DNA of 64,000 bases, from positions 62,001 through 126,000 of the forward strand of contig JAHDVF020000044.1 of NCBI GenBank assembly GCA_022606425.2, given 5' to 3'. Numbering within the stretch: position 1 is the first letter of the stretch; each line of letters begins with the position of its first letter. The notes under the pieces are model-generated. The model ran no database searches, was not told the DNA's origin, and saw only the letters and a program-made list of their open reading frames with translations. Source of the stretch: Lepidostoma basale (Eukaryota; Arthropoda; Insecta; Trichoptera; Lepidostomatidae). The translations under genes were made by a program, and so were the position numbers. Below, piece by piece: positions 1,021 through 63,626 of this stretch.

Positions 1021-1090
1021 ATCAAATCAAATCAGTTTATTAACTCAAAAGACATTACAAACAGGAACATGTTTAAGACAAATGTTTAAG
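1021..1090 (-). mobile_element. LINE L-B, extreme 3' end with (GATTT)n tail
   Basis: Reading on the minus strand, an AT-rich 3' end finishes in TGATTTGATTTGATTTGAT. The same terminus is seen at 1786-1888, 4803-4925 and 52080-52190. Confidence 0.65.
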
Positions 1091-1125
1091 ATGGCAGTGT
1101 GCTGCCGAAATCGGTCGAAGACACA
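1081..1125 (+). ncRNA. Hammerhead-like motif, degenerate (ACCGGT-type family)
   Basis: TTTAAGA (for CTGANGA), one extra T, stem II GGCAG/CTGCC, GAAAT (for GAAAC) and CGGTC at 1112-1116. Outer complementarity ACAAATG/CATTTGT surrounds it. Two core bases are changed, so activity is unlikely. Confidence 0.35.
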
Positions 1126-1136
1126 AACATTTGTGG

Positions 1137-1545
1137 GCTTTAACTTAATATGACAGTGCATAATGGAGTTCTAGTCCCGACCCTTATGCATGGAAGTGAA
1201 GCTTAGTGTTAGCAGAAGAAGGATGAAAGTAGTATAAATGCCGTAGAAATGCGGTCACTAAGAAGAATGTGCAGAAAAACGATGTATGGTAGAATATCTA
1301 ATGATGAGGAATGAAAGGCGGATAAATGCATGATAAATAAAATTAAGAAAGGGTTACTAAGATGGTTTGGACATATGGAACGAATGGATGAAGGCAGAAT
1401 GGTTAAAAATATATATGCAAGTAGTGTGAATGGGAAAAGAAGTCGAGGAAGGCCAAGGAAGACACGGTAAGACCAAATTAACCACGTACTGAAAGGCGGC
1501 CATGTTCGAAGTAGGAAAAATCGACGAGCGTGCATGTCACGATGG
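1137..1545 (+). mobile_element. LINE L-A pseudogene fragment
   Basis: The + strand reads as L-A C-terminal protein with stops and a frameshift (INAVEMRSLRRMC, LLRWFGHMERMDEGRM, KRSRGRPRKT). Confidence 0.8.
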
Positions 1546-1785
1546 AGAATAATTCTCCATCGTGACGCCAAACGCCAAACACCCTCCAGCATGGTCGAGT
1601 TCTCGAAATATCCCCTGAGTAATCTAAAGAAATGGGTTATGAGATGCCTATCTCTTCGAAGCTGCTGAGAGTTGGCCCCAAGGATTCCCAAAAGATATGC
1701 CGTGGGATAGAGCCACGGATAGCTACCATACTCCCTCATGTAGAGATATCTCAGATTTTTTTTCTGAACCCTCTCCAGCATTTTC
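1545..1785 (-). mobile_element. LINE L-J-like reverse transcriptase C-terminal fragment
   Basis: The minus strand encodes LERVQKKNLRYLYMREYGSY, similar to LENIQKRFLRYLYLREY of the L-J copy at 45400. It looks like CR1/jockey-type LINE debris. Confidence 0.65.
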
Positions 1786-1888
1786 TTGCTATATTGCTCA
1801 AAATAATATTTTACCTGTACTTAATAGATGCCTTAAACATTTTCCTGTTTGTAATGTCTTTTGAGTTAATAAACTGATTTGATTTTTT
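1786..1888 (+). mobile_element. LINE L-B 3' end
   Basis: Closely resembles 52105-52190: TTTTACCTGTAC, TTAATAGATGCCTTAAAC, then a TGATTTGATTT tail. Confidence 0.65.
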
Positions 1889-2127
1889 TTATGTACATAA
1901 CAGGTCGTTTGGACCCAATTACAGAATACAATTTTGATTTTTCTAGCTATTATATTGATTCTCGTGATATGTGATAGGTAGCCAATCTATCGCCATTTTA
2001 TTGTCACGTGAATTCTACATCAGACCAAAGACAGTGTGACAATCACACTGCCATCGCCGGGAATCGAACCCAGGACCTTCGGCATGGAAGTCATAGCTCG
2101 TAACCACTCTGCCACGAAGGTCGTCAT
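1889..2127 (-). mobile_element. SINE-1, nearly full-length tRNA-derived SINE
   Basis: On the minus strand an RNA polymerase III A-box-like GTGGCAGAGTGGTT and B box GGGTTCGATTCCCGG are followed by the family body (CTTTGGTCTGATGTAGAATT, ACGTGACAATAAAATGG). Ten copies or parts occur here. Confidence 0.85.
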
Positions 2128-2840
2128 TTGATTTGATAATAACGTCACAGCGTGTCCCGACACGACGCATGTACATGCTCGCCGTCACGTCAGTATGATT
2201 CACGACACGACACGTCACAATGACAAATTTCTGCCTTTAGTCAGTTCAAATGTTATTTCAATGTCAATTATTTTTTTCCTTCATGCTTCATTACAATTTT
2301 GCGTCTATTTTCGACCGGATAGTAGTTTCAAACATGTTTTTAGAATTCGTGTTTTTTAACATTAATTTTTCGAACAACATTAACCACTTATTTGTACTAT
2401 TCGGACACGGGCTATTATTGCTCTGTATTTAATTTCATGCACATCTGCATTTTAAAATATTTTTTCTCATATACATACTAGTGGCAAGAAGGTAAAGTGA
2501 GGTAAATCATTTGTAAATGATGAAAAAAAAAAAAAACAACTTTTAAAAATGCATATTTAGTTAAAATCAACTAATTTCTGTGTCTTCGACCGGTTTCGGT
2601 ATTTTATGGAAGAGGAGATACCATAAGATGTTCCACCAGAAGATGGCAGTGAGTTAATGGCAATAATAATGTTGTTATTTGAAATATCATGGTAGACATG
2701 ATGTTTCAAATAACATTTTTTTAAGTCAATTGTGTTTATTTTAACATTATTTATTTATAAAGCATAAAATTGATCACGGCAAATGCACCGCTGCACATGG
2801 AATGCACTTGGAGTAAATGGAAATCTTATAGCCCGGTTTG
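2128..2840. other. Unassigned AT-rich stretch
   Basis: No coding similarity. It contains a palindromic segment (about 2671-2719, GTTATTTGAAATATCATGG mirrored as CATGATGTTTCAAATAAC) and an ACCGGTTTCGG remnant of a hammerhead-type repeat at 2588-2599. Confidence 0.4.
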
Positions 2841-3010
2841 ATTTCAATTAAGGTGACCCCGTGGTTGTTTGATCTATATATGAAAAAGCGAATGAAAATG
2901 GTAAAAGGGTTGGACGCAGGTGCCAAAATGAGCGCAGTATCAGTAAGTTGTCTGTTGTATGGGGACGAAGCTGTGCTACTTGCAGGCTGCCAAAACCGGT
3001 CGAAACCAAA
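2841..3010 (+). mobile_element. LINE L-A reverse-transcriptase palm fragment
   Basis: Reads LFDLYMKKRMKMVKGLDAGA, CLLYGDEAVLLA; the intact copy at 37273 has CLLYEYADDAVLIA here, so the catalytic YADD is destroyed. Confidence 0.7.
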
Positions 3011-3241
3011 GAACAAGTGGGATAAACCTAAATATATATTATTAAGTATTTTTACACTATTTACAATGAATGAATACCTAGAAATTTAAATTAGCAACAT
3101 GAATATTTTGTGTTCATTGTATTTGTAACTTTTATTGAACTATAATGTATTTTAGTGATATTATTAACAACAGTAACATTATTATTAGTAACAATCGAAC
3201 AACATTGAAGCGACTCATTTGGACGCTATTTGGATAATTTT

Positions 3242-3811
3242 CTTCCTCAGCCTTTTCCCGTCCACTCCTGGACAAAGGACTCCTCCATTTGCTTCCATGT
3301 CATTCTGTCCTGTGCAGACTGCATCCAGGTTATTCCGACGTGTCTGTTAAGATCGTCATTCCAACGAAGTTGCGGTCGCCCTGCACTTCTCTTTGCCGTC
3401 CACGGTCTCCAAGTCAGCAGTCTTCTTGTCCATTTTTCATCTGAGCTTCTGGCTACGTGACCCGCCCATTGCCATTTTAGAGTCGCCACCCGGTGGATGA
3501 TGTACGTGACCTTTGTTTTTTCTCTCACCGTATCGTTTCTGACTCTGTCTCTTAGGCTTATTCCTAACATGGCTCTTTCCATGGCTCTTTGGGTCACTCG
3601 CAGTTTCTCGGCACTTCTTTTGGACAATGTAACAGTTTCAAGACCATAAGTACCAACTGGCAGAACGCAGGCTTTATAGACTTTTCGTTTCAGGTTGATC
3701 GGTATTTTCCGGTTTTTAAGGATGTAGCTCAGGTTTCCGAAAGCTGCCCAGCTTAGTCCAATTCTTCTTTTTAGCTCTGCGGCCTGGTTATCTCGGCCCA
3801 ATCGAATATTG
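3242..3811 (-). mobile_element. LINE L-D fragment, 12-bp target duplication
   Basis: The minus strand carries an open frame (LGRDNQAAELKRRIGLSWAA ... LKWQWAGHVARSSDEKW) for the C-terminal end of a LINE protein. It is flanked by TTGGATAATTTT at 3230-3241 and 3812-3823. Its 5' boundary is the same as in the copy at 5626. Confidence 0.85.
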
Positions 3812-12495: not shown

Positions 12496-12540
12496 TGACC
12501 CTGACGAAGCACTAGCGGGAGCGAAACCGGTTAGTTCGCA
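12496..12540 (+). ncRNA. Hammerhead-like motif with intact CTGACGA and GAAAC boxes
   Basis: CTGACGA at 12501-12507, extra A, a GC-closed hairpin, GAAAC at 12523-12527, stem III ACCGGT, cleavage triplet GTT. Stem I is weak. Confidence 0.45.
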
Positions 12541-15589: not shown

Positions 15590-16050
15590 ACTTTAATTCT
15601 GGAAGTTTTAACAAATAAGGCAACTTTTCAATTTATATGTAATATTGTCATGCAAGTCCGTTTTCTAAAATAATTTTTGTTTTGTATTGAAGTGTCACGT
15701 TTTCCTTTACTAGGGCATTATCAATTGTGATTTAACATATGTAATGCTTTAGAAAAGCGAAAGATATATCCAATTAAAGAAAATAAACCACGAAAAGTAC
15801 GTTTTCATAAGTATTAATTACTTTAAGTAGTGATTAATACAAATGAAAACGTCTGTTTAGAAGTTTTAGTATATTTTATGTGAATGACATGTTTCGCCTG
15901 TCTAATGCATTATCAAATAATTATTCTTTAGATAGGCGAAACGTGTCATTCACATAAAATATAACAAAACTTCTAGAAAACCGACGTTTTATTAATATTA
16001 ATCATTTAATATGGAGTTTTACATCATTGTTCTAGAAACAATAAATACTT
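15590..16050. repeat. Family X inverted-pair element with hammerhead-like arms
   Basis: GACATGTTTCGCC at 15888-15900 and GGCGAAACGTGTC at 15938-15950 form inverted arms, flanked by the X AAAACGTCTGTTT / ACCGACGTTTTATT ends. A decayed unit precedes it. Confidence 0.7.
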
Positions 16051-16056: not shown

Positions 16057-17370
16057 TAAATATTTGTGAAATGTATACTTACATCTGTATACGAATCCTG
16101 GATTTTCACCTGTGGGTGGTTAATTTAAATTTTTAATTGTATCTCAATAGAGACGAAGAAACAAACTGGAAACTGAATATGGATGATCAAGGTGTTTACA
16201 GGACTTATGACCTGTCATTGGTTGGGTTAAGCGCACGCTTTATGTAATTACAACATTCCCCATTCCACCATTGTTATTATGATCATGTATGATACATTTT
16301 TTTTTTTTTTTGGAAGTTGTATATATACTCCAAATCCATACATATTTTCACGTGGCAGTTCCAGTTAGCCATCTATGTAGATTTAATTGTACTAATTAAT
16401 TTTTTAAGATTAATCTATACAATCCATCCACTAACGCCATCTATGAAGAATGATTGTTTAGCATTTAGCAAACTACTTTATTATTAACACAATGCGAAGA
16501 GGCTACCGCCTCCTAGCGCGCCTGAGATACCCACTCTATTGGTACTCCTATTTTATACGCCAATAATTGACCAGAATATTTACAAATATTTGAAATGTAT
16601 ACTTACATCTGTATACGAATCCTGGATTTTCACATGTGGGTGGTTAATTTAAATTTTAATTGTATCTCAATAGAGACGAAGAAACAAACTGGAAACTGAC
16701 ATACGACCGCTGCGTCAACTGTAATTACATAAAAGCGTGCGCTTAACCCAACCAATGACAGGTCATAAGTCCTGTAAACACCTTGATCATCCATATTCAG
16801 TTTCCAGTTTGTTTCTTCGTCTCTATTGAGATACAATTAAAAATTTAAATTAACCACCCTCAGGTGAAAATCCAGGATTCGTATACAGATGTAAGTATAC
16901 ATTTCACAAATATTTGTAAATATTCTGGTCAATTATTTGGCGTATAAAATAGGAGTGGATACTCCAGGCGACTTCTAACGGTGCGCTAGGAGGCGGTAGC
17001 CTCTTCGCATTGTGTTAATAAAAGTAGTTTGCTAAATGCTAAACAATCATTCTTCATAGATGGCGTTAGTGGATGGATTGTATAGATTAATCTTAAAAAA
17101 TTAATTAGTACAATTAAATCTACATAGATGGCTAACTGGAACTGCCACGTGAAAATATGTATGGATTTGGAGTATATATACAACTTCCAAAAAAAAAAAA
17201 AAATGTATCATACATGATCATAATAACAATGGTGGAATGGGGAATGTTGTAATTACATAAAGCGTGCGCTTAACCCAACCAATGACAGGTCATAAGTCCT
17301 GTAAACACCTTGATCATCCATATTCAGTTTCCAGTTTGTTTCTTCGTCTCTATTGAGATACAATTAAAAA
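16057..17370. repeat. Large inverted repeat of family S
   Basis: A forward S copy (16133-16650) and a reverse one (about 16890-17367) are nearly identical in mirror image around a small central palindrome (16656-16840). Both carry the start TTGTATCTCAATAGAGACG and the body GATGATCAAGGTGTTTACAG. Confidence 0.85.
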
Positions 17371-17914
17371 TTTACTTTATATATATTTTTACACTATTAT
17401 TCGAGATACTATTAACACATTTTTTTCTAATGCATTGTTAAGTTTAACTTGTTAAGTATTAAATACGGAAATTATAATATATTGTGTTATTGGCATATGC
17501 TATACAAGAATATTTTTATAATGAAGGAACACTGATTAATGTTTACAAATCAATTGTTTATTTATAAAACATTTGTTAATGATGAAAATATATACAATGC
17601 TAATGATGTTATTGAAAGCAAGAAAAAAACAAAACAAATCAAGCTTAAATGAAAACTTACAATAAGATAAAACTCTCCGAAAGAAAAAATATTTGATGAT
17701 AATTGTAGAACTTTATTTTCTTCCCTTGGCGTTATTGTTTTGTGTTGTTATTAATTAATTATTAATTAATTTAAACCTTATTAAAAAAAATTGTAAGTAG
17801 GCTCGTCAGAAAAAAATCTTTTGCTAATTAAATATTGCATGAATGAAATGAAATCAACGAAAAAAAAATTAAGTTATATTTATTTTATTATATAGTTTGT
17901 TTTATACTAAAGTA
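17371..17914. other. AT-rich intron sequence, nothing recognised
   Basis: Very AT-rich, with a short ATTAATTAATT repeat near 17750. No repeat or exon supported. Confidence 0.45.
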
Positions 17915-18804: not shown

Positions 18805-18850
18805 GACAGCGATCGGTTTCGCCAGGCTAGCTGGCATCCACAGACGGGAC
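18805..18850 (-). ncRNA. Hammerhead-like motif, family V
   Basis: Minus strand: CTGTGGA, extra T, stem II GCCAG/CTGGC, GAAAC, then CGATC for CGGTC. A second copy is at 34880-34920. Confidence 0.4.
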
Positions 18851-20880: not shown

Positions 20881-21040
20881 TGTATGGTTATTATAATTGA
20901 TGCCAACTGGTTTCGGTTGGACCCAAGCTTCATCATGGCAGTATAATAACAATTTATTATATATAATTCGATTGCCCTAATAGAATTCTGCCCTGATGAA
21001 ACTTGAGTCCAAGTCAAATTAGTTCATCATCATCATTAGC
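20881..21040. repeat. Family W inverted pair with hammerhead-like arms
   Basis: Minus-strand arm 20901-20940: ATGATGA, stem II, GAAAC, stem I TGCC/GGCA. Plus-strand arm 20989-21024: CTGATGA at 20993-20999, extra A, stem II ACTTG/CAAGT, decayed GAAAC. A second W pair is at 56511-56634. Confidence 0.6.
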
Positions 21041-21170
21041 CGTCTGTCATCAACTGCTGAATGTAGGCCTCTCCCAAAGCACGCCACTGCCCCTTATCCA
21101 TTGCCGCTTTCATCCATCCATGTCCAGCAATCCTCTTCAGATCGTCGGTCCAGCGGGCAGGGGGAACAGA
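21024..21170 (-). mobile_element. LINE 3' fragment
   Basis: TCATCATCATCATTAGCCG then GCTGAATGTAGGCCTCTCCC, a 3' end common among insect LINEs. Confidence 0.5.
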
Positions 21171-21199
21171 AACTAGTTGGAATCATTTATAATAATTAC

Positions 21200-21480
21200 C
21201 ATACCGTGGTTAAATACAAAGTGTTTCTTCTATATTCGCCTTCACTTTGTGTTGTGGATTCATATTTGAATAAATATAGTTACACTTTGTATTACAACAC
21301 TTTTTATTTTTACTGAACTTAGACATGACGTTTCGATTACAAGTAACCTTTATCGATGTATACAATTTTAACGTTAAAATTGTATACATTGATAAAGGTT
21401 ACTTGTAACTGAAACATGTCTGAGTTCAGTGAAAATAAAAAGTGTTGTAATACAAAGTGTAACGATATTAATTAAAAAAC
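21200..21480. repeat. Family U inverted pair with hammerhead-like arms
   Basis: Palindromic around 21366: minus arm 21321-21357, plus arm 21385-21424 (TTGATAA, extra A, stem II GGTTAC/GTAACT, GAAAC, ATGTC). Ends AACACTTTTTATTTT / AAAATAAAAAGTGTT. Related unit at 27905-28165. Confidence 0.7.
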
Positions 21481-21664
21481 AAAGTGTTTTATTATTTTAT
21501 ATCTATAAGTCAAAATTGTCAAACCACAAAATGAGTGCTTCATATGATTTTTTTTTTATAGATATAATACTGTTGTACATTGTAAAATCACAGATATTTG
21601 GAAAATGCACTGACCGGTTTCGACTGCAATCAGACCAGGGCATAACTGAATGCATCTGTTTCAG

Positions 21665-22756: not shown

Positions 22757-22995
22757 GAGGTCACGTAGATTATAAGTGCTTTGACTGCCACCCCGAAGGT
22801 TCCGGGTTCGTTTCCCGGTGAGGGTAGCGTGATTGTCATACTGTCTTTGGTCTGGTGTAAAATTTACGTGACAATAAAATGGCGATAGATTAGCTACCTA
22901 TCACATGTCACGAGAATCACTATGATAGCTATAATACCCTTTACATCGATTTGGCTCATGCTGTTATGATGTAAAGAGCGATTCAACAAAATAAA
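22757..22995 (+). mobile_element. SINE-1 with L-J-type tail
   Basis: B box GGTTCCGGGTTCGTTTCCCG, body, then CCTTTACATCGATTTGGCTC and AATGATGTAAAG-like tail ending in AAT repeats. Confidence 0.8.
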
Positions 22996-23029: not shown

Positions 23030-23190
23030 TATTAATTTTACGGCCGACCGGTTTCGATGTTACACCTATCTTAATAAGAGCTTAATAGCTGAAGAATCAC
23101 GATTTATTTAGTGATCATTTTTATAAAGATATATATTGTTTCGAAACCGATCATCAGAAAGGGATAATGAGGTGGTTTTAATGATAATAC
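23030..23190. repeat. Hammerhead-like inverted pair, ACCGGTC type
   Basis: Minus strand GAAACCGGTCGGCCG around 23043-23057; mirrored GAAACCGATCATCAG near 23151. Core boxes are decayed. Confidence 0.4.
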
Positions 23191-23915: not shown

Positions 23916-24028
23916 CATAAGGAACAGCAAAGATATTATTGTTCATAGATTTAGCTGCAAACCAATGCTTAGGATTAAAATAAAAAATAAAGAATGTTTT
24001 AATTAAGTTTAAAATGTTTTTTTTTCAG

Positions 24029-27904: not shown

Positions 27905-28165
27905 TTTTATTTCTTCTATATTCGCCTTCACTCTGTAATATGGATTCAGATTTTAATAATTATAACTGCACTTCATATTTTTACAACGGTTTATTACACT
28001 TTTTAGAGACATTTTGCGGTTGTGACATGTGTGATATTTTAACCTAAATTAAAAAAAAAAATTACATCCATAAAAGTTGGATCACACCCGAAACATGTCT
28101 GTAAAAAGCATAATAAAGTGTTATTAAAATACAAAGTGTAAGTTATATTTATTCAAATATAAATA
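27905..28165. repeat. Family U inverted pair, decayed
   Basis: Shares TTTCTTCTATATTCGCCTTC with 21216-21240, and GAAACATGTCTG at 28092-28103 on the plus arm; core box lost. Confidence 0.6.
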
Positions 28166-31255: not shown

Positions 31256-32192
31256 ATAAATAACTCTCATTTTATTGATGGTTGAGGTATTAGTTTTGTA
31301 AAACTCGTTTAGTGGGTTTACTTGGATCCAAATACCACTAAACAATCGTGTTTACTATTATAATTTAATAAAAAAAACTATCATTTTAGATGGAAATTAA
31401 GAAAGACAAATGATACTTTATTATAGTGGCATAAATATTTGCATCCTTCCTATAAGGGGTTAAATAAAAATGAATAATATGTACTCAAAAAAATATATTT
31501 TGTTTCATAATCAATCCCGAAAAATTATTTTACGTAAAACACGTGAGGTGTTGTTTCTTGAACAAAGTAAAACTCTGTATCAAATGACAAGCATTGATAA
31601 AAACGCCTGTTTTCAAGAAATTTTAAAAATATTTTATGGAAATTACATGTATCGTCTTACCAAGGCATTATCAAATGTTGTCATTGGATAATGGTTTAGC
31701 AAGGTGAATGTTACATGTTATTTCCATCAAATAATTTAAAATTTATAGAAAATGGACGTTTACATTAGTATTAATTGTTTAATGTTGATGAAGTACTTCA
31801 TTTAAAAAAATTCAAATTATGTTTTATAGGAATGATACGTTTTGCCTTGCTAGGGCATTATAAAAATATGTATTATGCCTTGAAATGGTGAAACAAATCA
31901 CTCTCATACAATATGTGAAACTCCTAGTTAACAGAAGTTTTTTTATGAATCAAAATTAAAATCTTATAAAAATATTTAAAATAATTTACAACACAAAATG
32001 TTTGTTTGTTTAACACTGATAAAGGTTCGATAAAACTAAATAAAGTGATGTAATAATATAAAAAACAAAGAACACAAGTTATAAATTATTTTTAATAATG
32101 CTTCACCACAAATGAAGTGCTTCATATGAAAAATAAAATTATAAGTGAAAGTAATTCTAGAATTTGGTTGAATTGAATGCTTTTATTCTTTA
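31256..32192. repeat. AT-rich DNA with decayed X and Q repeat units
   Basis: 31268-31370 matches the Q family (TTGATGGTTGAGGTATTAG, ACCACTAAACAATCGTGTTT); 31600-31960 has two decayed X pairs (CATTATCAAATGTTGTC; GCATTATAAAAATATG). Confidence 0.5.
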
Positions 32193-34412: not shown

Positions 34413-34879
34413 CCTTGACGTTTATAAAGCTCTGCGCAATTACATCTCCATCATTCCGTTACACTGTCAACCTCTGTCAGGAGCACTCCATTTTCGTCTT
34501 CAATAGCCCACGTCCGGGGTTAAAAATCGCGAGTTATCTGTTTCACCTTCATGAAAATATCCCTTGTGTGTATGGTTTTCGATGTCCCGGTAAATATGAT
34601 TAACAAAAGCATTCTAGTCTCTACGACATATGCGTTGTATTTATCTAGAGAGGTCTCGATAATGAATGTTCGTCGAATTGGTATTGCTTTTGATTAGTTC
34701 TTTTCATTCTTTAACAGCATTCCATGTTTTCTCTGTCATCCATTCGTTTCTAGGGCCCTCTCTCTAGTAATCATTGCTTTTTCCCGAGTTGAGACAATTC
34801 GGTCAAGTTGGTTCCATTTAACTACAATGAAATAAAACAATGTTTTTTACAGAACTACTTCCACTTTAGTATTTATTTC

Positions 34880-34920
34880 GACGGCGACCGGTTTCGCCAG
34901 GTTCACTAGCACCAACAGAC
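34880..34920 (-). ncRNA. Hammerhead-like motif, family V
   Basis: Minus strand: CTGTTGG, extra T, stem II GCTAG..CTGGC, GAAAC, stem III ACCGGT, GTC at 34886-34888. Within a repeat also seen at 18781-18880. Confidence 0.45.
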
Positions 34921-34943
34921 AAATCTGTCGATGCCAGTAAGGC

Positions 34944-35170
34944 GACGACCTTCGTGGCTGAGTGGTAAGAGCTCCGACTTCCATTTTCAAGGTCCCGGGT
35001 TCGATTCCCGGCGATGGCAGTGTGATTGTTACACTGTCATTGGTCTGGTGTAGAATTCACGTGACAATAAAATGGCCATAGATTGGCTACCTATCACATG
35101 TCATGAGAATCAATATAATAGCTAAAATAAATTGTATACAGTAATTGGATTCAAACGACCTGTTGTATAC
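34944..35170 (+). mobile_element. SINE-1, well-preserved
   Basis: GACCTTCGTGGCTGAGTGGT, B box GGGTTCGATTCCCGG, full body, tail ending CGACCTGTTGTATACAAGGA. Confidence 0.88.
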
Positions 35171-35350
35171 AAGGAGAGAAAAAAAAAAGTCTGACGAAAC
35201 CGGTAGTTGTAATAAAGACAAAAGTGATTGTTGTTCTTAAAAAAAACATTGTTTTGTTCAATTATCCTTGAAATGGATAATAAAATGTTTGTAACATTGT
35301 TTTATCAATTTACGGAAATAAAATAAAATAAAAAGTCTGATCTTAATTAC

Positions 35351-36599: not shown

Positions 36600-36800
36600 T
36601 TCGTCCTCAATGACATGTTTCGCCATTCTAAAGCATTATCAAATGTTAGATATATTTGATTTTGAACATTTGATAATGCCTTACAAGGGCGAAACATGTC
36701 ATTCCATTTAAAATAAAACAAAACTCCTGGAAGGGAAACGTTTTCATTCATATTAATGATTTAATATGGAGATTTACATCAGTGTTTAAAAAACAATAAA
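36600..36800. repeat. Family X inverted pair
   Basis: GACATGTTTCGCC at 36611 and GGCGAAACATGTC at 36688 in mirror image, followed by the X end with TAATATGGAGATTTACATCA. It touches the donor side of Rh50 exon 6 (12 bp from 36812). Confidence 0.75.
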
Positions 36801-38580: not shown

Positions 38581-38900
38581 AAGGACCTCAAATAATTTTA
38601 ATATTATATCAATATTTTATTTCACTTTGTTCACAGTATTTGGATTTGATGATCATTTATTATTCATACTGATATTAAAATTTGCATTTCGAAATGTATA
38701 TAGTGTAACTATAGCGCCCTTGAGATGATTCATTCATAAAAATGGCGCTATATAAATCATCCAATTTATTATTATTATGATTATTATTATTAAAGGTGAT
38801 TTCTGTTAACCTTTTGTTTATTGAACAGTTTAAGTTTGGGTTTTATCATTCTTACAATATGTTTAGTATAAAAAGTCATATTAATGTGACAAATACTTAC

Positions 38901-39202
38901 AGTCAGATACTTGTATCCAATAACAGACAAGGTTCCAGATAGCATTCCAACTAGCAAGGCTCCAAATGGATGCAGCATCAGATTGCAGATAGAACCCACT
39001 GCTACACCTCCAGCTAGGGTAGAGTTCTGGACATGGACCATGTCGAATTTCTTTTCAGAGCTGGTGAGTGAAGATATTACAAAGGCGGTCACGGTACACG
39101 AGGCGAGGGACAGGTAGGTGTTGATTACGGCACGGTATTGCTCGTCTCCGCTAACTAGACCGCCGTTGAAAGATGGCCAAAATACCCATAAAAAGAGTGT
39201 AC
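38901..39202 (-). CDS. Rh50: Rh50, coding exon 5 (TM7-TM9)
   Basis: Acceptor TTCAACACAG, donor CTGACT|GTAAGT, phase 1 to phase 0. The longest coding exon; it encodes [14 protein letters not shown], the NTYLSLASC helix, and the [17 protein letters not shown] loop that is diagnostic for Rh rather than Amt proteins. Confidence 0.96.
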
Positions 39203-40369
39203 CTGTGTTGAATAAAGAAAATATCAGAAAAAATACCGTTACCATGATCGTATCATACAATTTAACAGTTTAGGTAAATAACAGTTTCTATTAACCAGCT
39301 CACTAAAAATAACTAACTAAAATAATCACTAAAATATTAGAGGAACAGGCAGAGAATAACGGTTTCTTCTCTCAGGACTCAAATATCTAAAATCCTCTAC
39401 ATTTTTACAAAATTCTTTTAAATGCAGGCATGCATTGTGCATTTTTATTACTTAAATTTTGCATTATGGCGTTTTACCTTTCCCTTACGGTGCTAAAATA
39501 AAAACGTGCGTTCCGGTGTAGGGTAGTCAGTACGCGTTAAAAAATATGCGATTTTAAATCGGAAAAATGGGAACATTCATAGCTAATCCCCTTATATAAT
39601 TATAATTGAATTTAAAAATTATTATACTGTATAATAATTGAGATCTGATTGCTAAAAACATTAAAAAAAACATCTGGCAACGCTCAAGGAACGGGCATAG
39701 GTCCGCTCTGGTTGCAAGCCCGAAAGCAACTACCGGCGCGCCGGGACGGCGAGAGTGAGAACATTGAGCTAGAACATATGCAAGAGTGAGATGCGAATAT
39801 AGTGTGACGCACTCAAATCGCTTATACGCGAATTTCTTTTTGATTTTCACAAAATACCTTCGATGTACCCGATAAATTCTGATTATTATTAAAATTATTT
39901 TTAAATCAATGTGTAAATATATTATGGAGGAATACCTAAAATCTTAACCTTGTATTTATTATATTTATAGAGATATTGATGGTTTTTAGAAGCAACGTGT
40001 AGAAGATACCCATCATAGGGAAGGGAGGGTTAAAATTTGTTACATTTTCTCTTGTCATGTTTTTCTCGATCTTATTCAGTTTTGTGTTCGCGTTTACATT
40101 TTGTTTATCTATCTTCGTGTGCTAAAATAATCACAATCCTGTATTATTCATAATGCTTCATTTTATAGCTCGATAATATGATACCAATTGGAGGATTAGA
40201 GCTATATTTTATGATATGATATGAGTATTTAATTTCAACTTAATTTTTTAATTGTGACTAGCATATTACCTTGTCAATCAACTAGATAAAAAGTCAAATC
40301 TTCTTCAATAAAATATGTAAAGAAATTATATTCTTTTAACTAAAATTATAAATATCGCATATTCATTTA
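39203..40369. other. Rh50 intron 4, part; includes a CpG-rich block 39665-39835
   Basis: Mostly AT-rich. The block has CTACCGGCGCGCCGGGACGG and an ACGCACTCAAATCGCTTAT flank; no repeat partner was seen in this window. Confidence 0.4.
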
Positions 40370-41045
40370 TTGTTTCTTAAACAATGATGTAAAACTTCAT
40401 ATTAAATAATCAATACGAATGAAAACGTCAGTTTTCTAGAAGTTTTATTATATTTCATGGGAATGACATGTTTCGCCCTTCTAAGGCATTATCAAATGTG
40501 ATTTGATAATGCCTTAGAAGGGCGAAACATGTCATTCCCATAAAATATAATAAAACTTAACTAACTAACTAATTAACCATCACGCCGTTTCCCCGAAGGG
40601 GTAGGCAGAAAGAATGGACTGCCACACTTTTCTTTCCTGACATATTTCTTTTGCTTCCTCAACATTCATACATCGTGTCATGCTCGCGCGTCAATTTCTC
40701 TGACTCCTAACATGGCCGACATTCAATATTTGATTTATTTGATCGTGCCACGTTTTCCTCTCTTTCTGGTTCCATTTACATCGTTAATATATATATTTTT
40801 TTACCATTCTTTCTTCATTCATTCTTTCCATACGTCCAAACCATCTTAATGATCCTTTCATTATTTTGTTCATAACACCATCATTCGCATAAACAATAAA
40901 ACTTCTTAGATTCATAAACAATAAAACATCATAATCAAACTTCTAAGGAATAATTTTTTTTATAATACCTTAGAAGGGTGAAACATATTCCCATAAAATA
41001 TAATAAAACTTCTAGAAAACTGACGTTTTCATTCCAATTAATTAT
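40370..41045. repeat. Family X palindrome with L-A inserted beside it (40559-40890)
   Basis: 40441-40557 is a palindrome with one mismatch (arms 58 bp) and GAAACATGTC on each arm. A minus-strand L-A 3' fragment follows at its GTTA tail, and a further X unit resumes at about 40890. Confidence 0.85.
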
Positions 41046-41124
41046 CGCATATTCTCTTAAAAATATAATTTTCAAATGATCTGTTGTATTTTGGGATTTA
41101 AAAGATACGTAAATATTTTCATAC

Positions 41125-42230: not shown

Positions 42231-42660
42231 TTAAATTACAATGTTTAAGAAAAGACAAACTCGTTATATTTTTTCAATATACTACAACATTTTTCTTAAT
42301 TTAATAGTTTTGTAGTTTGACATTATTTTTTTACTAAACTATATTTTTTTTCGGATTCAGATTCTAGACTGAGAATGTGATAAATTTTAGCCAAATTCAA
42401 TTTTTAATTATTTATAGTCCATTGTTTTGGCCGAAACACTATGATACTTCAACATTATTACTGTTAAAATTTAAAACACAGTTTTAATATCACAATTTCT
42501 TTTTATTCACAAATCACTTACCCATGCTTTAAATTTACGTAAAACTCAAGAATTTCCGTTGTTGATTGAAAATGTTTGTTTTAAACATATGTCATTCAAT
42601 AGTCCATTGTTTTGGCGGAAAAACTATGATACTTCAACATTATAAACTGTTAAATTATAA
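42231..42660. other. AT-rich intron sequence with an internal duplication
   Basis: ATAGTCCATTGTTTTGGC occurs at 42414 and 42599, each followed by ACTATGATACTTCAACATTA; a short repeat unit also hinted at near 62360 (TTCGGCCAAAATAATGG). Confidence 0.45.
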
Positions 42661-42697
42661 AATTGTGATTTTATGTATCACAATTTTATTAAAATTT

Positions 42698-42743
42698 TTC
42701 GCGACAGCTGTTTCGTCAACCTACGTTGACATCATCAGGTGTT
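42698..42743 (-). ncRNA. Hammerhead ribozyme-like motif, family Z
   Basis: Minus strand: CTGATGA (42738-42732), extra T, stem II GTCAAC/GTTGAC (6 perfect pairs), GAAAC (42714-42710), stem III ACAGCTGT, cleavage triplet GTC. Stem I is weak (CAC/GCG). Confidence 0.6.
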
Positions 42744-43317
42744 ACAGTAATATATCAACTGTTAAATTTTCTTGATTTATATAACACCTCTAATAACCTC
42801 CCCAGAGAAGTAAGGTCACAGGTAGATAAGGCTGCAGCGGTTGCAGGCTGTCTGAAAGATGTCATATGGAGAAACAAGGACATGAGGACTGACATCAAGG
42901 TACGCATTTATAAGACCTGTGTACGACCAATCCTCACATATGGCATTGAATCGAGGGCAGACACTGTCAAGACAAAGAGCATGCTCAGGACAACCTAGAT
43001 GAAAACACTCCGGGCTATAGCTGGCAAAACCCTACTTGATCGAGTTAGGAATACAGCAATCCGAGAAATCTACGAGGTCGAAGATGTGGTCAGATGGGGA
43101 CGTCAAAGACGGCGATACTGGCATCAACATGTAGAAAGAATAAGCTCAAATAGAATACCATACATAGCTCTCCATGGAACGCCAAACGGATAAAGCCGAC
43201 CAGGAAGACCCCCGAAACGGTGGAGAGAAAGCTGGAGTTCAGTCTCTCAAGAGGACCCGCCTGAAATAACAGACTTCTAAGTCTACCAAAAGTGAAGAAG
43301 AAGAAGAAGAAGATACA

Positions 43318-43361
43318 ACACCTGATGATGTCAACATAGGTTGATGAAACAGCTGTCGCGA
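43318..43361 (+). ncRNA. Hammerhead ribozyme-like motif, family Z
   Basis: CTGATGA at 43322-43328, extra T, stem II GTCAAC/GTTGAT, GAAAC at 43346-43350, ACAGCTGT, GTC at 43355-43357. Confidence 0.6.
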
Positions 43362-43580
43362 AAAAGAAAAATAAAATTGTGATATATAAAAACAAGGATT
43401 TATATTTTAGCAGTTTATATGTTATTCGTAAAAACCTCATTTTTTAATCGTAAATCTGACGTATTCGATTTAAAAATAATTCGAAATACATCTGCGCACA
43501 TCTGGGCTACAACGCATCTGGGTTGCTATGGGTATCAATGGGGAGATGCAGTAAAGATAAGAGCATATTCTCATTCGTAC

Positions 43581-44329: not shown

Positions 44330-44460
44330 AATGTATATTTCTATTTTTCTTTTTTATACACTTTGTATATACAACACTGATATTAAAAAAATAAAATTAT
44401 ACTGGCATGTTTCGGACAAACAGTCCTTCTTCAGTAAAGATACATATTTATAAAAATATT
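44330..44460 (-). repeat. Family Y unit with decayed hammerhead (44400-44440)
   Basis: Minus strand: CTGAAGA, extra A, stem II GGAC/GTCC, GAAAC, then ATGCC for ATGTC. Flank TTATACACTTTGTATATACA shared with the Y unit at 49081. Confidence 0.6.
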
Positions 44461-47904: not shown

Positions 47905-48800
47905 CAAAAATTTTCTTTTCCTTTTTTATAAACTTCGTATACAACACTAACTTAAAATAAAATAAAGTTAAATATCAGACATGTTTTGGACAACTCGGTA
48001 CATCCTCAGTCTTCTTCTTCTTCTTTTTCCTTATTGTAGACCTATGTGGTCTGTTCTCCAGAAAGTTGCTCCTCCCGTGAGGTAGATTCCCAGCTGTCCT
48101 TCCATCTTTTAGGAGGTCTTCCACGAGGACGAGTCCCACGAGGTTGATTATGCAATGCAATATAGGGGAGTCTGGTGGTGTCCATTCTTTGAACATGACT
48201 GTACCAGTCCCCTTTTCGCTGTCTGCTCCATCTTATAATATCCTCAACCTCACATATCTCTCTTATTCTGGTGTTCCTCATGCGATCCCTCAGTGTCTTG
48301 CCTGCTATCGTCCTCAGTGTCTTCATTTCGGAAGTCCTCAAAACTTGTTTGGTCTTTACTGTGTCTGTCCTTGCTTCGACGCCATATGTTATTATTGGTC
48401 TTACGCATGCTTTATAGATTCTCATCTTACTCTTAATGGCCATGTCTTTGTTTTTCCATATTGTGGATTTTAGAGCCCCAGAGATTGCAGCTGCCTTGTT
48501 TACTTGGGTTTGTATTTCTTCCCGCAGATCAGCTCCCCCCACCAGGTCTATGCCTAGATACTTGAAGGTCCTGACTTGTTCTATGGGTTGATTTTCTATA
48601 ACCAGGTTACATGTTTTGGGTGTTTTGGAAAAGGTCGTACATTTTGTTTTTTCGATGGAGATCGTCATGTTGTATTTCTTACTTCCTCAGTGATATTATA
48701 AAAATATTTAAAATATTATACAATTATTGATGGTTGAGGTATTAGTTTTGTACAACTCCATATTAATTTAATAATAATAAACATAATTGTTTAGTGGTTT
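47905..48800. repeat. Family Y unit (minus) cut by LINE L-E (48011-48683)
   Basis: TCCTCAGT is duplicated at 48003-48010 and 48684-48691. L-E encodes VRTFKYLGIDLVGGADLREE, LRTIAGKTLRDRMRNTRIRE, RGRPPKRWKDSWES in a 208-codon frame starting at an internal ATG. Confidence 0.88.
48011..48683 (-). mobile_element. LINE L-E, C-terminal region, open frame
   Basis: The cleanest L-E copy; post-RT region with a (GAA)n tail at 48011-48030. Frame is open until stop at 48042. Confidence 0.88.
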
Positions 48801-48990
48801 TGCTTGGATTTAATTTATATAAATTATATAAATTGTGACAAATTTGTTTCGCCTTGCGAGGGCATTCTCAAACTGCAAGGCAAACCAAAATTGTCACAAT
48901 TTTCATAAATTGAATCCAAGTAAAACCACTAAACAATCGTATTTACTATTATCAAATTATTATAAAATTATAAAATTGTTTACAAATATG
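48801..48990. repeat. Family Q inverted pair with hammerhead-like arm (48836-48872, minus)
   Basis: Minus strand: TTGAGAA, extra T, stem II GCC/GGC, GAAAC, 10-nt self-complementary stem III ACAAATTTGT, GTC. Flanks TTTAGTGGTTTTGCTTGGAT / ATCCAAGTAAAACCACTAAA are inverted. Confidence 0.6.
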
Positions 48991-49080
48991 ATCAGTTTTG
49001 TATTTTTTATAACATCTGTCAAAAGTGATCACATTTGTAAACAATTATGACATATTATAATATTTTAAATATCTTTATAA

Positions 49081-49122
49081 TATCGCTGAGGAAGGACCGG
49101 GTTATTCGAAACATGTCTGATA
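49081..49122 (+). ncRNA. Hammerhead ribozyme-like motif, family Y
   Basis: Stem I TATCG (49081-49085) pairs with TGATA (49118-49122). CTGAGGA at 49086-49092, extra A, stem II decayed on one side (GGAC against ATTC), GAAAC 49108-49112, stem III ACATGT, GTC 49115-49117. Confidence 0.6.
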
Positions 49123-49179
49123 ATTTATTTAATTTTTTTTTTAAAGTTAGTATTGTATACAAAGTATATAAAAAATAAA

Positions 49180-49440
49180 AATAAAAATATTATGATGTAA
49201 GACTCCATATTAAATCACTAATATGAAAACTATAAGTTTTGTTATATTTTATGGGAACATGTTTAGTTTAATTAAGGTATACCTGTCAAATGTATTATCA
49301 AATATCGTTTATGATGCATTTGACAGGTGTAAACATTTGCCTAAATGATAAAGGCTTATAAAGGCAAAACACGTCATTCACATAAAATTTAATAAAACTT
49401 TTAAAAAGACAGACGTTTTCAATTGTATTAATTAAATTAA
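49180..49440. repeat. Family X element, decayed
   Basis: ATGTAAGACTCCATATTAAAT, GGGAACATGTTT, GGCAAAACACGTCATTC and AGACGTTTTCAATTG mark the family. Confidence 0.65.
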
Positions 49441-55443: not shown

Positions 55444-55549
55444 AAATATTTAGTACAAACCAAATATTAAATAAAAGATTAAGAAAACAAACGTATTTAA
55501 TATACAAATCTCTGTTTTTATTCTACATAAAATGTATGACATTTATTTA

Positions 55550-55745
55550 TTGTTTCTTAAACAATGATGTAAAACTCCATATTAAATAATTAATACGAAT
55601 GAAAACGTCAGTTTTCTAGAAGTTTTATTATATTTTATGGGAGAGACGTTTGATAATGCCTTAGAAGGGCGAAACATGTCATTCCCATAAAATATAATAA
55701 ATCTTTTAGAAACCTGACGTTTTCATTCGTATTAATTATTGTATG
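55550..55745. repeat. Family X element
   Basis: AACAATGATGTAAAACTCCA, ATGAAAACGTCAGTTTTCTA and GGCGAAACATGTCATTCCCA; one arm is partly deleted. Confidence 0.8.
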
Positions 55746-55934
55746 ACATTTACTTATGCCAAGGCAAAAATGTATGAATCCTGTATAATATTATAAAACT
55801 ATTAGAAAACAGAAGTTTTATAGATTTTGAAATACGATAAAAACTAATTGCGTTATTGTAAATCCTTTCATTCGTTTGTCGCGTAAAGAAGTAAAAAAAC
55901 ATTTTTTGAAAATAATTATTTCTATAATAGTTTA

Positions 55935-56479: not shown

Positions 56480-56690
56480 TTGTATTTAACAATGATATGG
56501 TCATGATATTGATGCTAACTTGTTTCGCTTGGATCCAAGCTTTATCAGGGGAATACAATTATTACTAGTTATTAGGTATAACTAGTTATTATATTGCCAC
56601 AATGGAACTCGGGTCCAAGCGAAACTAGTTGGTATTAATATGATAACCGTTGGTTAAATACACAAAGGTTTTATTAAGTTAATAATGTCT
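56480..56690. repeat. Family W inverted pair with hammerhead-like arms
   Basis: Minus arm: CTGATAA, extra A, 14-nt stem II GCTTGGATCCAAGC, GAAAC (56526-56522). Plus arm 56596-56634: GAAAC 56621-56625, stem III ACTAGT, stem I TGCC/GGTA. Confidence 0.65.
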
Positions 56691-57894: not shown

Positions 57895-58142
57895 TCTTTT
57901 TTACGTACACAACAGGTCGTTTGGACCCAATTACTGTATACAATTTATATTGTATATTTTTTAGCTTTTATATTCATTCTCGTGACATGTGATACGTAGT
58001 CAATCTATCGCCATTTTATGGTCACGTGAATTCTACATCAGACCAAAGACAGTGTGACAATCACACTGCCATCGCCGGGAATCGAACCCAGGACCTTCGG
58101 CATGGAAGTCAGAGCTCTTACCACTCTGCCACGAAGGTCGTC
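57895..58142 (-). mobile_element. SINE-1, well-preserved
   Basis: Minus-strand CGACCTTCGTGGCAGAGTGG, CTGGGTTCGATTCCCGGCG, body, tail CCAAACGACCTGTTGTGTAC. Nearly identical to 1889-2127. Confidence 0.88.
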
Positions 58143-58251
58143 GTACCCAGTTGATCGTACCTTAAGTATTACACGTACATTATATATGTTTCTCATTCAT
58201 GAATAAATATTTTCTCTTGTTTTATAAATAATAATACCAATATCAATATTT

Positions 58252-60090: not shown

Positions 60091-60129
60091 ATTATAAAAT
60101 TAATAACGGAATTGTTTATATCTATATAT

Positions 60130-60680
60130 CATAGCTTTCGTTATGCTTCGCCCTGTATGGCGTTCCGGTATCATTTCGAGAAAGCTCAAGCTCCAAATAT
60201 TCAGCAGTAGCGTAAAAAGCGTACTGCTGTTCGGATGTGAGACTTGGAAATCTACCGCGGACGTTATTGGTATACTCTAGGTGTTTATAAATAGGTGCCT
60301 TCGCTCAATATTCAAAATCTATTGACTCCAAACAGTGTCAAATGCCGTTCTTTGGACCATGGCAGGTGAAAAGCCAATTAAAGAACAAGTCGCTAGACGC
60401 AAATGGCAGTGGATCGATCACACTCTGAGACGGAACCCAGCCTGCATCGCTCAGGGCGCACTAGACTGGTCCCCTATGGGGGGGAAAGAGAAAGCGAGGC
60501 AGACCTAGAGCCACATGGAGAAGAGTCCTGCAGGACGAGGTTAGGGCAGCAGGCCTCAATTGGGATGATGTTAGGCATTAGGCATGCGATAGAGTCGGGT
60601 GGAGAAGGTTCCTTGAGGCCCTATGCACCACGGAGGTGTAACAGGACAGAAAAAAGAGAAGAAGAGATTGTATATATATT
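60130..60680 (+). mobile_element. LINE L-F C-terminal pseudogene
   Basis: Reads KLKLQIFSSSVKSVLLFGCE, then RRKWQWIDHTLRRNPACIAQ with shifts; its 3' part is included in the tandem duplication. Confidence 0.75.
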
Positions 60681-61197
60681 ATTTAAAGAAAACAAGGTTA
60701 AAATATTGAGCGTTTATAATTTCTACACAGGAGACATTGAATTAAAAAAAATAATGTAATCTTACTCTAAGTCATAGATAATAAATTTAGTACTTTTTAA
60801 CGACTGCTTCATTTGAGATCTCGCATCGCTCAGGGCGCACTAGACTGGTCCCCTATGGGGGGGAAAGAGAAAGCGAGGCAGACCTAGAGCCACATGGAGA
60901 AGAGTCCTGCAGGACGAGGTTAGGGCAGCAGGCCTCAATTGGGATGATGTTAGGCATTAGGCATGCGATAGAGTCGGGTGGAGAAGGTTCCTTGAGGCCC
61001 TATGCACCACGGAGGTGTAACAGGACAGAAAAAAGAGAAGAAGAGATTGTATATATATTATTTAAAGAAAACAAGGTTAAAATATTGAGCGTTTATAATT
61101 TCTACACAGGAGACATTGAATTAAAAAAAATAATGTAATCTTACTCTAAGTCATAGATAATAAATTTAGTACTTTTTAACGACTGCTTCATTTGAGA
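60444..61197 (+). repeat. Tandem duplication, two 375-bp copies
   Basis: 60444-60818 and 60823-61197 (offset 379) appear identical by eye, with TCTC between them. They include the L-F 3' end and unrelated AT-rich sequence. Confidence 0.9.
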
Positions 61198-61399
61198 GTT
61201 TCAGCTAAAAATAAATGTTTACCCCCAGATAATGGGATTTAAAACTTCTGTACGCGTTTTATTACTTTAAGACCAATTAAACAGAATAAAATGAGTTAAG
61301 CGAAGCTAAATGTTTCAATTTGATATATTGCAGGAATACACAATACAGGTTCTATAGTAATTAATTCAAATTTGATTAACGTAAGAAACAGACACTTGT

Positions 61400-61680
61400 A
61401 TTGTTCTTGAACATTCATGTAAAACTCCATATTACGTATTTAATATTGAGAATCAAACACGTTTTAAAGAATGTACATCATAATTGAAGGATTAATACAA
61501 ATGAAAACGTCTGTTTTCTAGAAGTTTTATTATTTTAAACTGATAAATTAAATAACTTTGTATTTGTATCACAATTGTATTTTATTTTACGCGACAGCTG
61601 TTTCATTAACCTATGTTGACATCATCAAGTGTTACAATAATATATCAAATGTCCAATTTTCGTGATTTTTCGAATCTTTA
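61400..61680. repeat. Half X element followed by half Z element
   Basis: X part: GATTAATACAAATGAAAACG, TCTAGAAGTTTTATTA. Z part carries a hammerhead motif at 61598-61643 (minus; TTGATGA, stem II, GAAAC, ACAGCTGT, GTC). Confidence 0.65.
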
Positions 61681-61824
61681 TGTGTATTTTTTGTTCAAGA
61701 CGAATTAAATAATTTCATTGATATAATTTTGAAGATCATGCTGAAATTGCGTTAGGTGCCTAAATATTTTAATTTAAAGAACGCTTAGTTACTATTTATA
61801 GGAGAAAATATTAAAGGTGGAAAA

Positions 61825-62093
61825 TATAATTGAATCGTGTTTTTCAGAAGTAGCACACATCCAAGTAACCTCAACTTTACAGGACGGACAAAAAACTGTC
61901 TGGTACAAAATTTTCCTACAATACATATATTTTTTTCAATACACATTTGTCATAGGGAGTAAAATAGACAAATGTAAATTGAAAAATATATATATATCGT
62001 AGGAAAATTTTGTACCAGACAGTTTTTTGTCCGTCCTGTAAAGTTGAGGTTACTTGGATGTGTGCTACTTCTGAAAAACACGATTCAATTATA
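61825..62093. repeat. Perfect long hairpin, arms of about 94 bp
   Basis: The segment starting TATAATTGAATCGTG (61825) is mirrored without mismatch by the one ending CACGATTCAATTATA (62093). The roughly 80-nt loop pairs further. No similarity to other families here. Confidence 0.9.
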
Positions 62094-62384
62094 AAATAAT
62101 AAAAATAATAATAAAACAGTAATTAGAAGGAACAATTACACATAGTATACAGACAAAAACGATGAAACATAATAAATTGAAAACGATAAACAATAACAGG
62201 AAGTACATAGATTAATAGGAAAGATGACAAAAGCTGAAGGTAGTATTATATTATATTTTTTTTAGCTAGATTGAACAGGGTAAAAGTTTTTAATGTACTA
62301 CGAGTTTATACTAATGGGGAATAAGAAGTTATTTAATTGAACAGTTAAAATGTTAGGGTATCATAGTGTTTCGGCCAAAATAAT

Positions 62385-62680
62385 GGAAGTTTTATTATAT
62401 TTTATGGGAATGATATGTTTCTCTATTCTAAAGCGTCCCCTACACGATAAATTCTATTAACAATACAGTATGATAATGCCAATAATATTGATCATGTTAG
62501 GTGAAAAAAAGCGTATTGTCGTACTCAAGGAGTAAATGACTGTATCAATATTATTGACAATACTGGTATTGCCAGTAATATTGATTGTATAAGGGCCGCT
62601 AAAGGAATTATCAAACAATTGACAATACGAGTACTTCAAAAAGGTGAAACGTGTTTTGAAAAAATGTTTTAAAAAAATAA
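62385..62680. repeat. Family X remnant split by a 165-bp MITE (62434-62598)
   Basis: CTAAAG is duplicated at 62428-62433 and 62599-62604. MITE ends CGTCCCCTACACGAT / ATTGTATAAGGGCCG are imperfect inverted repeats, with internal TCAATATTATTGACAATAC palindromes. Confidence 0.65.
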
Positions 62681-63172
62681 AAAACTTTGAACATATGTAC
62701 AGAAAATATTAAATATATATATTAGATCTATTACGTACGCATAAGATAACAGAAATAACGAAAAGTAATGACGAATTATGTATAACGAAAAACAAAATAA
62801 CACGCAAATAAACATCTTTGAATGTCTGGAAATCTTACAGAAAAACAGATTCAATTGTAGAGTGATGTTGAATACTTGTGGTCAATAGATATTTTTGTTC
62901 AATCTTATTGGTTTTGTAATGTGCAACCTCGATATTGATTGATTGTGCATTTGCATAAACAGTCAATTTTGTCTTATTTGAATACCAATATAACCACAAC
63001 ATATTGAATTGTTATATTATAAATTAAAACATATATTCTTATACATAGATGAAAATAACATAAAATAAATAAATGAAGTAAAATATTATATGCGAAATGA
63101 GATTATTATTCTACTTTGGGAATTATAATAACATTGTTTAAACCACTTTTTTAATAAAAAAAAATATTAAAA

Positions 63173-63213
63173 TACACGACAAGTTTCAGAGGATACCTCC
63201 ATCTTCAGGTGTA
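63173..63213 (-). ncRNA. Hammerhead ribozyme-like motif, family P1
   Basis: Minus strand: stem I TACAC/GTGTA, CTGAAGA, extra T, stem II GGAGG/CCTCT, GAAAC, stem III ACTTGT, GTC. All core bases present. Confidence 0.7.
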
Positions 63214-63585
63214 ACAAATATAACAAAAACTAAACAAAGAAAGACTAATAAAAAACGCATTTAAAATTCGATACAAAAATTAAAAATTAAAAATTAAGTT
63301 GGGCTATTTGTTATAAGTAGGTACTAACAATTATTTTTTTACAGTAAAATAATAAATAACATTTACTGTTAAAAAATAATTGTTAGTAACTATAATAGCA
63401 AGCCATAAGTAGGTACTAACAATTATTTTTTAACAGTAAAATAATATATAACATTTACTGTTAAAAAATAATTGTTAGTAACTATAATACTTATAACAAA
63501 TAGCCCAACTTAATTTAGAATTTTTGTATCGAATTAAAAATGCGTTTTTATTAGTCTTTCTTTGTTTAGTTTTTGTTATATTTTT

Positions 63586-63626
63586 TACACCTGAAGATGG
63601 ACGTATCCTCTGAAACATGTCGTGTA
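63586..63626 (+). ncRNA. Hammerhead ribozyme-like motif, family P1 (best example)
   Basis: Stem I TACAC (63586-63590)/GTGTA (63622-63626), CTGAAGA 63591-63597, extra T 63598, stem II 63599-63611 with one mismatch, GAAAC 63612-63616, stem III ACATGT, cleavage expected after C63621. Confidence 0.72.

Follow-up and report, generated by a model that had tools for sequence, protein, structure and literature searches.

The stretch of DNA analysed here, a window of 64,000 nucleotides from the trichopteran Lepidostoma basale (assembly GCA_022606425.2, contig JAHDVF020000044.1, positions 62,001 to 126,000 of the forward strand), contains on its two strands numerous short repeats that carry hammerhead ribozyme-like motifs and belong to several families, denoted below by letters. 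We could lay out 20 such motifs and define 26 repeat arms. The original prediction, made from the letters of this one window, held that many unrelated repeat families share a ribozyme layout with one extra base before stem II and an always palindromic, loopless stem III, and that the motifs should act as obligate dimers; the outer coordinates that it gave (1081 and 63626) fall on motifs U and X. To quantify the layout we used a descriptor, composed after the first motifs had already been inspected, which requires [CT]TGAN[AG]A, then stem II (minimum 2 bp), then GAAAC, and finally a stem III that is palindromic, ends in GT and precedes H. It matched 15 places in the window, one of which (62619+) is probably a chance match, against a mean of 0.075 and a maximum of 2 in 40 dinucleotide-preserving shuffles. 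The simpler pattern CTGANGA-N-GAAAC gave 9 matches against 0.56. Two of these 9 matches, 23138- and 25902-, failed the tests of stem III and were dropped.

The core CUGANGA...GAA with a stem II hairpin was recovered across the families, with E, H and U deviating at two core bases. In all 20 motifs the pairing of stem II improves when one base after CTGANGA stays unpaired, which bears out the extra base that had been noted. Stem I reaches 5 bp in X and Z_49086 and 2-3 bp in P1, and 70.8% of the stem I cells are paired. Stem III has no loop and folds into no stable hairpin in any of the 20 motifs (ViennaRNA), in agreement with the earlier claim that it could not close within one molecule. The motifs have the layout of a minimal type I hammerhead, a motif of the self-cleaving class. 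A scan of the window with Rfam, run both at gathering score and with E values allowed up to 10, matched no hammerhead model, presumably because the stem III loop is absent.

A MAFFT alignment of all 20 motifs misaligned those of Y and was discarded, and covariation was therefore counted on 16 motifs without Y and M. Standard pairs occupy 86.4% of 176 cells as against 63.7% after shuffling, the covariation score reaches 0.657 where shuffles give 0.244, and sliding the pair partners lowers pairing to 27-49%. At positions 3-8 of the core the pair is CG in 7 motifs, UA in 7 and UG in 1, and is unpaired in 1; M, outside this alignment, is likewise UA. Six of the seven aligned UA motifs come from P1 copies and the seventh from D, and hence they represent few independent events. 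At least 90% conservation is seen at U4, A6, A9, G12-A13-A14 and the AC-GU-C of stem III. In this alignment every stem, and likewise the C3-G8 core pair, is backed by compensatory changes, and the replacement of C3-G8 by U3-A8 appears to be tolerated as a pair. Together with the excess of descriptor matches, this covariation upholds the claim of a layout shared across the families. A covariance model built on the same 16 motifs, with the stem III pairs omitted and Y and M kept out, found 30 places at E up to 1, including all 16 training motifs; the other 14 include Q 56512-, P1 31639-, H 18806- and Q 20900-.

The extra base is T in 15 of the 20 motifs and A in the remaining 5; as T it yields ATG in 14 motifs and GTG in one, where A9 is changed. 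Reading frames from the motif AUG stop within 2-20 codons, and the predicted cut lies 25 nt from the A of this AUG in P1 and X (hand count). A9, the inserted U and G10.1 make up this AUG, which may be the start codon of an ancestral open reading frame (ORF) lying inside the ribozyme. A viroid hammerhead is reported to have an extra core nucleotide at this position. Tolerance of an extra nucleotide in a viroid hammerhead core is announced in the title of De la Pena and Flores 2001, as given in the reference list of PMC6155905.

Self-comparison of the regions concerned showed that the motifs lie in arms, each comprising a motif and about 100 bp, which are paired as inverted repeats with the ribozymes facing outward (Table 1). 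An outward partner within 1.5 kb was found for 19 of the 26 arms, or 18 if U is excluded because its partner resembles sequence of long interspersed nuclear elements (LINEs), while inward and direct partners were found for one arm each. Among 300 random control positions, which can themselves land inside the elements, 19 had outward, 19 inward and 36 direct partners. In the six elements measured, one arm extends past the other by a tail of 40 (N), 44 (J), 46 (X), 38 (D), 46 (Y) or 38 nt (M). Clear target duplications of 11-13 bp flank X, D, N and J among the 12 elements tested; N and J are separate insertions: both ends almost coincide between them, but the duplications and the sites differ. 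What the arms enclose varies: most P1 elements have a few bases there, H has a transfer RNA (tRNA)-like stretch, and Z has about 1 kb with a LINE-like ORF (recognized by eye, with no Pfam match) and element M. In X, positions 63313-63489 of the inner part consist of two 92-bp tandem units, each a hairpin.

Table 1. Hammerhead-bearing elements and motifs of the window; positions are those of the 64-kb stretch.
Feature	Position	Strand	Remarks
U motif	1080..1121	+	core TTTAAGA; stem III AUCGGU
V motif	12496..12537	+	ACCGGT, U17; partner not found
P1 element C	15831..16050	+	right-arm tail; weak target duplication
P1 motif (C)	15881..15921	-	
Second H motif	18806..18848	-	decayed; partner not found
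Q pair	20900..21204	.	motif 20900-20941 (-), partner arm 21165-21204 (+) with GAAACTAGTT
Element D	21216..21489	-	target duplication ACAAAGTGTTT 21216-21226 / 21479-21489; 38-nt left-arm tail; palindromic at 90%
D motif	21384..21425	+	U3-A8; extra base A
E motif	23041..23083	-	ACCGGT; core altered at G5, G8; partner not found
Pair F	27944..28164	.	D relative; core decayed
Decayed P1 pair G	31601..31761	.	motif 31639-31679 (-)
Element H	34813..35277	.	encloses tRNA-like stretch; right-arm homology starts within stem II
H motif	34881..34923	-	ACCGGT; core A6 and A9 altered
P1 motif (I)	36607..36647	-	
P1 motif (I)	36665..36705	+	head to head with 36607..36647
P1 element J	40353..41054	-	12-bp target duplication TATCGCATATTC 40353-40364 / 41043-41054; tail on left arm; interior (~40559-40950) resembles repeats of SINE/LINE type
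P1 motif (J)	40460..40500	-	U3-A8; ACATGT
P1 motif (J)	40498..40538	+	head to head with 40460..40500
Element Y	42587..43427	-	two outward arms; 46-nt left-arm tail; weak target duplication (10/11)
Y motif	42698..42743	-	stem III ACAGCTGT
Y motif	43317..43362	+	stem III ACAGCTGT; (AAG)n just before
Third Z motif	44399..44439	-	stem III ACATGC; partner not found
Z-region feature	47911..49186	.	spans both paired Z motifs (47973-48014, 49081-49122) and element M
Z motif, left arm	47973..48014	-	
Element M	48728..48957	-	38-nt left-arm tail; candidate imperfect 14-bp target duplication (an alternative placement has equal score)
M motif	48832..48876	-	stem III ACAAATTTGT
Z motif, right arm	49081..49122	+	stem I 5 bp
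P1 element N	55533..55752	-	12-13 bp target duplication TGTATGACATTT(A)
P1 motif (N)	55645..55685	+	
Q pair	56512..56676	.	motif 56512-56553 (-), partner arm 56608-56676 (+) with GAAACTAGTT
Third Y motif	61588..61633	-	stem III ACAGCTGT; without clear partner
Element X	63098..63745	+	13-bp target duplication 63098-63110 / 63733-63745 TGAGATTATTATT; 46-nt tail, right arm
X motif, left arm	63173..63213	-	stem III ACTTGT, one mismatch
X motif, right arm	63586..63626	+	CTGAAGA T ... GAAACATGTC; stem I 5 bp

Head-to-head inverted pseudo-long terminal repeats (pLTRs), a one-sided tail (in the six elements measured) and target duplications (clear in four) are the marks of Penelope-like elements (PLEs). 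Very probably, then, the motifs are minimal type I hammerheads of the PLE kind, residing in the pLTR arms of many small non-autonomous PLE copies that were inserted by a PLE reverse transcriptase supplied in trans. This kind of element is already known. Passages of PMC3846280 describe it in Penelope families of the rotifer Adineta vaga, with head-to-head inverted pLTRs, target duplications of 8-10 bp (the clear ones here being 11-13 bp), a 31-bp tail that is optional and confined to one side, junction palindromes and captured unrelated sequence, all of which have their likeness in the window; those families mostly have an ORF, whereas the copies here consist of arms only. The element Poseidon of Anolis carolinensis (PAc), as portrayed in parts of PMC11167929, resembles the present copies in having the hammerhead at the junction of pLTR and ORF, with stem II as the place of the start codon and a cut some 25 nt further on (26 bp downstream in that account), a tail of 30-40 bp that is ascribed there to reverse transcription beginning at two sites, and cutting and extension of both DNA strands. 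Unlike the copies here, PAc encodes its enzyme; its hammerhead is stated there to require protein for cleavage and to be dispensable for insertion in vitro. The minimal type I hammerheads of PLEs reported by Cervera and de la Pena 2014 and by Luense, Weinberg and Breaker 2017 are, as far as citations of these works convey, of the same minimal type with a near-absent stem III, and a PLE hammerhead variant without a closed stem III is described in a passage of PMC7761336. The copies here differ from those in lacking an ORF, and may differ further in the constant extra base after A9 and the U3-A8 cores. The families are not simply unrelated, as had been supposed, since they have the insertion architecture of PLEs in common.

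We propose that the element RNA would be copied into DNA from its 3' part by the PLE reverse transcriptase acting in trans, and that the inserted copy would comprise two arms that meet by their 5' sides and point outward, a target duplication and a tail of about 40 extra nucleotides on one arm. The restriction of the tail to one arm would reflect two possible start sites of reverse transcription, to judge from the work on the Anolis element. Target-primed insertion by a trans-acting Penelope-type enzyme, with the hammerhead as an inherited processing motif, is the best supported mechanism, and the copies show the back-to-back paired insertion unusually clearly. In a variant of this scheme the arms stem from self-priming on an antisense template instead of two RNA templates; self-priming has been proposed for rotifer Penelope elements (in a passage of PMC3846280) and suits near-spacerless palindromes such as D, while the arms of Z and H, which have different starts and enclose other sequence, agree better with two separate complementary DNAs. 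The comparison of P1 and Y arms holds no information separating one template from two, and we regard the variant as possible, though somewhat less likely than not. Single cases may record individual steps of template use: in element N the homology of the left arm starts on the third nucleotide beyond the predicted cut, which would fit a cleaved template, and in the right arms of M (48880-48963) and H (35191-35277) it starts within stem II of the hammerhead, which would fit a reverse transcriptase halting at the hairpin.

Several observations weigh against assigning these copies to PLEs with hammerheads. Across the 39 ORFs of the window with a length of 110 aa upwards, no GIY-YIG domain was found; this is why the copies are filed as non-autonomous Penelope derivatives and why the link to the enzyme is one of architecture only. 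RVT_1 was found in 2 of these 39 ORFs, both apparently of LINE enzymes and neither starting at a hammerhead. Of the 12 elements tested, 8 have a target duplication that is weak or absent. The score of 11 that the four good duplications attain is also attained by 8 of 132 mismatched flank pairs, in some of them owing to repeats common to the flanks. On the side of the ribozyme, stem I of P1 is short, and the core changes of E, H and U would be expected to impair cleavage; the four motifs withheld from the covariance model (Y 42698-, 43317+ and 61588-; M 48832-) were recovered weakly, at E of 0.025-0.89; and the interpretation of the extra base as part of an AUG is weakened by the presence of AAG in five of the 20 motifs and of GTG in one.

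Of stem III it had been claimed that it is always palindromic. This stands for the families, in which all the named types are present, and not for single copies: exact self-complementarity is seen in 25 of the 31 copies read, a fraction that leans high since 7 of the 31 were selected by GAAAC plus palindrome. One of these seven, 21621-, is located close to receptor-like exons and shows no other sign of a hammerhead, and is therefore probably a chance occurrence. A less biased count of GAAAC-N2-GT-H on both strands yielded 28 sites; the inner part is palindromic in 19 of them, where 7.6 would be expected. For GAAAC-N4-GT-H the figures are 3 of 7 against 0.5, and for N6 1 of 6 against 0.12. The innermost, third pair of stem III would join adjacent bases (AU in 11, CG in 4 and a mismatch in 1 of the 16 aligned motifs), and the complementarity therefore cannot serve a hairpin within one strand. 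Self-duplexes of the exact palindromes computed with ViennaRNA range from -6.0 (ACAUGU) through -9.6 (ACAAAUUUGU) and -9.7 (ACCGGU) to -12.5 kcal/mol (ACAGCUGU), and those of three inexact palindromes from -1.1 to -4.5 kcal/mol. The palindrome could instead be a by-product, if conservation acts on the AC-GU stem and common descent or chance made the bases within it palindromic: P1, D, X and Z all have ACATGT, perhaps through inheritance, the palindrome is broken in 6 of the 31 copies, and ACTAGT is exact in just two of the four Q copies. We consider this unlikely, given that five family inner types (AT, CG, TA, AGCT, AAATTT) are palindromic, with a chance of about 3e-5 assuming independence, and that the GAAAC-N2-GT-H sites exceed expectation as stated, in a count that takes same-family copies separately.

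The evidence on stem III, including the computed duplexes, thus supports pairing between two RNAs, short of proof. As stem III is self-complementary and loopless, a competent core would need two RNAs paired through it, and cleavage after GUC would then occur in trans dimers. A dimer reading of the motifs is plausible and is already in print. Palindromic stem III was noted in 2011 for several hammerheads in the legend of Figure S8 of PMC3088659, where, as here, palindromic stem III and loop of putative hammerheads from Aedes aegypti and others are proposed to pair two ribozymes; that legend gives them without the element context available for the present motifs. Dimer cleavage is reported in passages of PMC6155905 for newt and viroid motifs and of PMC7229834 for amphibian retrozymes, and Penelope-associated hammerheads cleaving as dimers are the subject of the title of Luense et al. 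2017, cited in PMC7761336. A transcript across a paired copy carries one sense and one antisense motif. In minimum free energy folds of eight such transcripts, seven lack any pairing within the motif, whose 41-46 nucleotides are instead engaged, 34-45 of them, with other parts of the element; in the fold of M, ten motif nucleotides are paired inside the motif and 21 outside. With arm folded on arm and the motif buried, the paired copies are probably silent as ribozymes, any activity probably residing in source RNAs, and dimers, if formed, would probably arise between RNAs of source elements.

Two other classes of element were weighed against non-autonomous PLEs. It is very unlikely that the copies are miniature inverted-repeat DNA transposons whose terminal repeats contain a hammerhead-like hairpin by accident: although the elements are palindromic and some have target duplications, their arms are unequal by 38-46 nt on one side in six elements, partner arms start at varied inner points and enclose other sequence, and both the core bases conserved to at least 90% and the compensatory changes seen in stems as well as in the 3-8 pair speak against accident. 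Metazoan retrozymes, in which small circular RNAs derive from paired type I hammerheads in tandem repeats, share the type I layout and weak stem III and have retrozyme-like relatives reported in insects among others (in a passage of PMC7229834), but are hardly credible here since they are tandem repeats of 150-450 bp, as opposed to a direct partner in 1 of 26 arms and an outward inverted one in 18-19 of 26.

Relatives of the PLE hammerheads were sought in collections of viral and prokaryote contigs with the pattern CTGANGATG-N-GAAACATGTC, which occurred in 3 stretches of viral contigs (identical, and without stem II) and in 51 of the prokaryote collection; the exact P1 motif is absent from the viral contigs of the collection. 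The sole good pairing among these 54 is that of L016 (contig JAIRPW010000049.1, 6582-6615, minus strand; filed under Zoogloeaceae bacterium), with 9 pairs in total, of which stem II contributes 5 bp once the extra U is skipped and stem I 4 bp. This pairing is not demanded by the pattern, and the motif shows that the extra-U layout also occurs outside the window. The L016 motif lies in an AT-rich non-coding part of the contig, the other end of which is bacterial, and the part bearing it is therefore probably animal DNA binned with the bacterium; no inverted partner was found near the motif, the examined stretch ending 76 bases upstream of it. The next best, with 6 pairs, are L013, inside a long open frame, and the non-coding L019 (108-139, minus strand; contig filed under Prevotellaceae), a weaker version of the same layout with 2 bp in stem II and 4 bp in stem I; the remaining stretches have at most 5. 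The L019 motif sits in an AT-rich stretch with a palindrome close by at 196-310.

The window also contains features apart from these elements. The ORF at 23984-26119 (plus strand, 711 aa) has receptor L and fibronectin III domains and, by eye, a membrane span, soon after which it stops, and it therefore contains no kinase; it looks like a kinase-less relative of the insulin receptor. Its three best matches are unnamed proteins of 689-705 aa at 51-52%, with mosquito and flea proteins at about 30%. A fragment at 38790-39269 (minus strand) matches the ammonium transporter family. A dispersed repeat with a tRNA-like head (34948-35019) occurs at 34943-35132, 57954-58143, 1939-2102 and 22773-22934 and is probably a short interspersed nuclear element (SINE). 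In a large foldback at 16121-17379, two 359-nt inverted arms match at 99% and are separated by 541 nt, and 60444-61197 holds two tandem copies of 379 bp that are 100% identical.

The role of the hammerhead in PLEs is called a mystery in a passage of PMC7761336. A bolder extension of the PLE scheme, which we think improbable, is that the stem III palindrome pairs two template RNAs per particle, that the paired RNAs undergo reverse transcription from both sides of one cut target, the ribozyme dimer itself thereby dictating the head-to-head insert, and that the extra U is kept as part of a start codon, tying the folding of the ribozyme to translation of the enzyme. Dense short copies with readable arms, tails and ribozyme variants, as found in this window of Lepidostoma basale, show that the U3-A8 core and the one-base core insertion recur in nature, and offer natural material on which to examine whether the formation of RNA dimers and head-to-head insertion belong to a single process.

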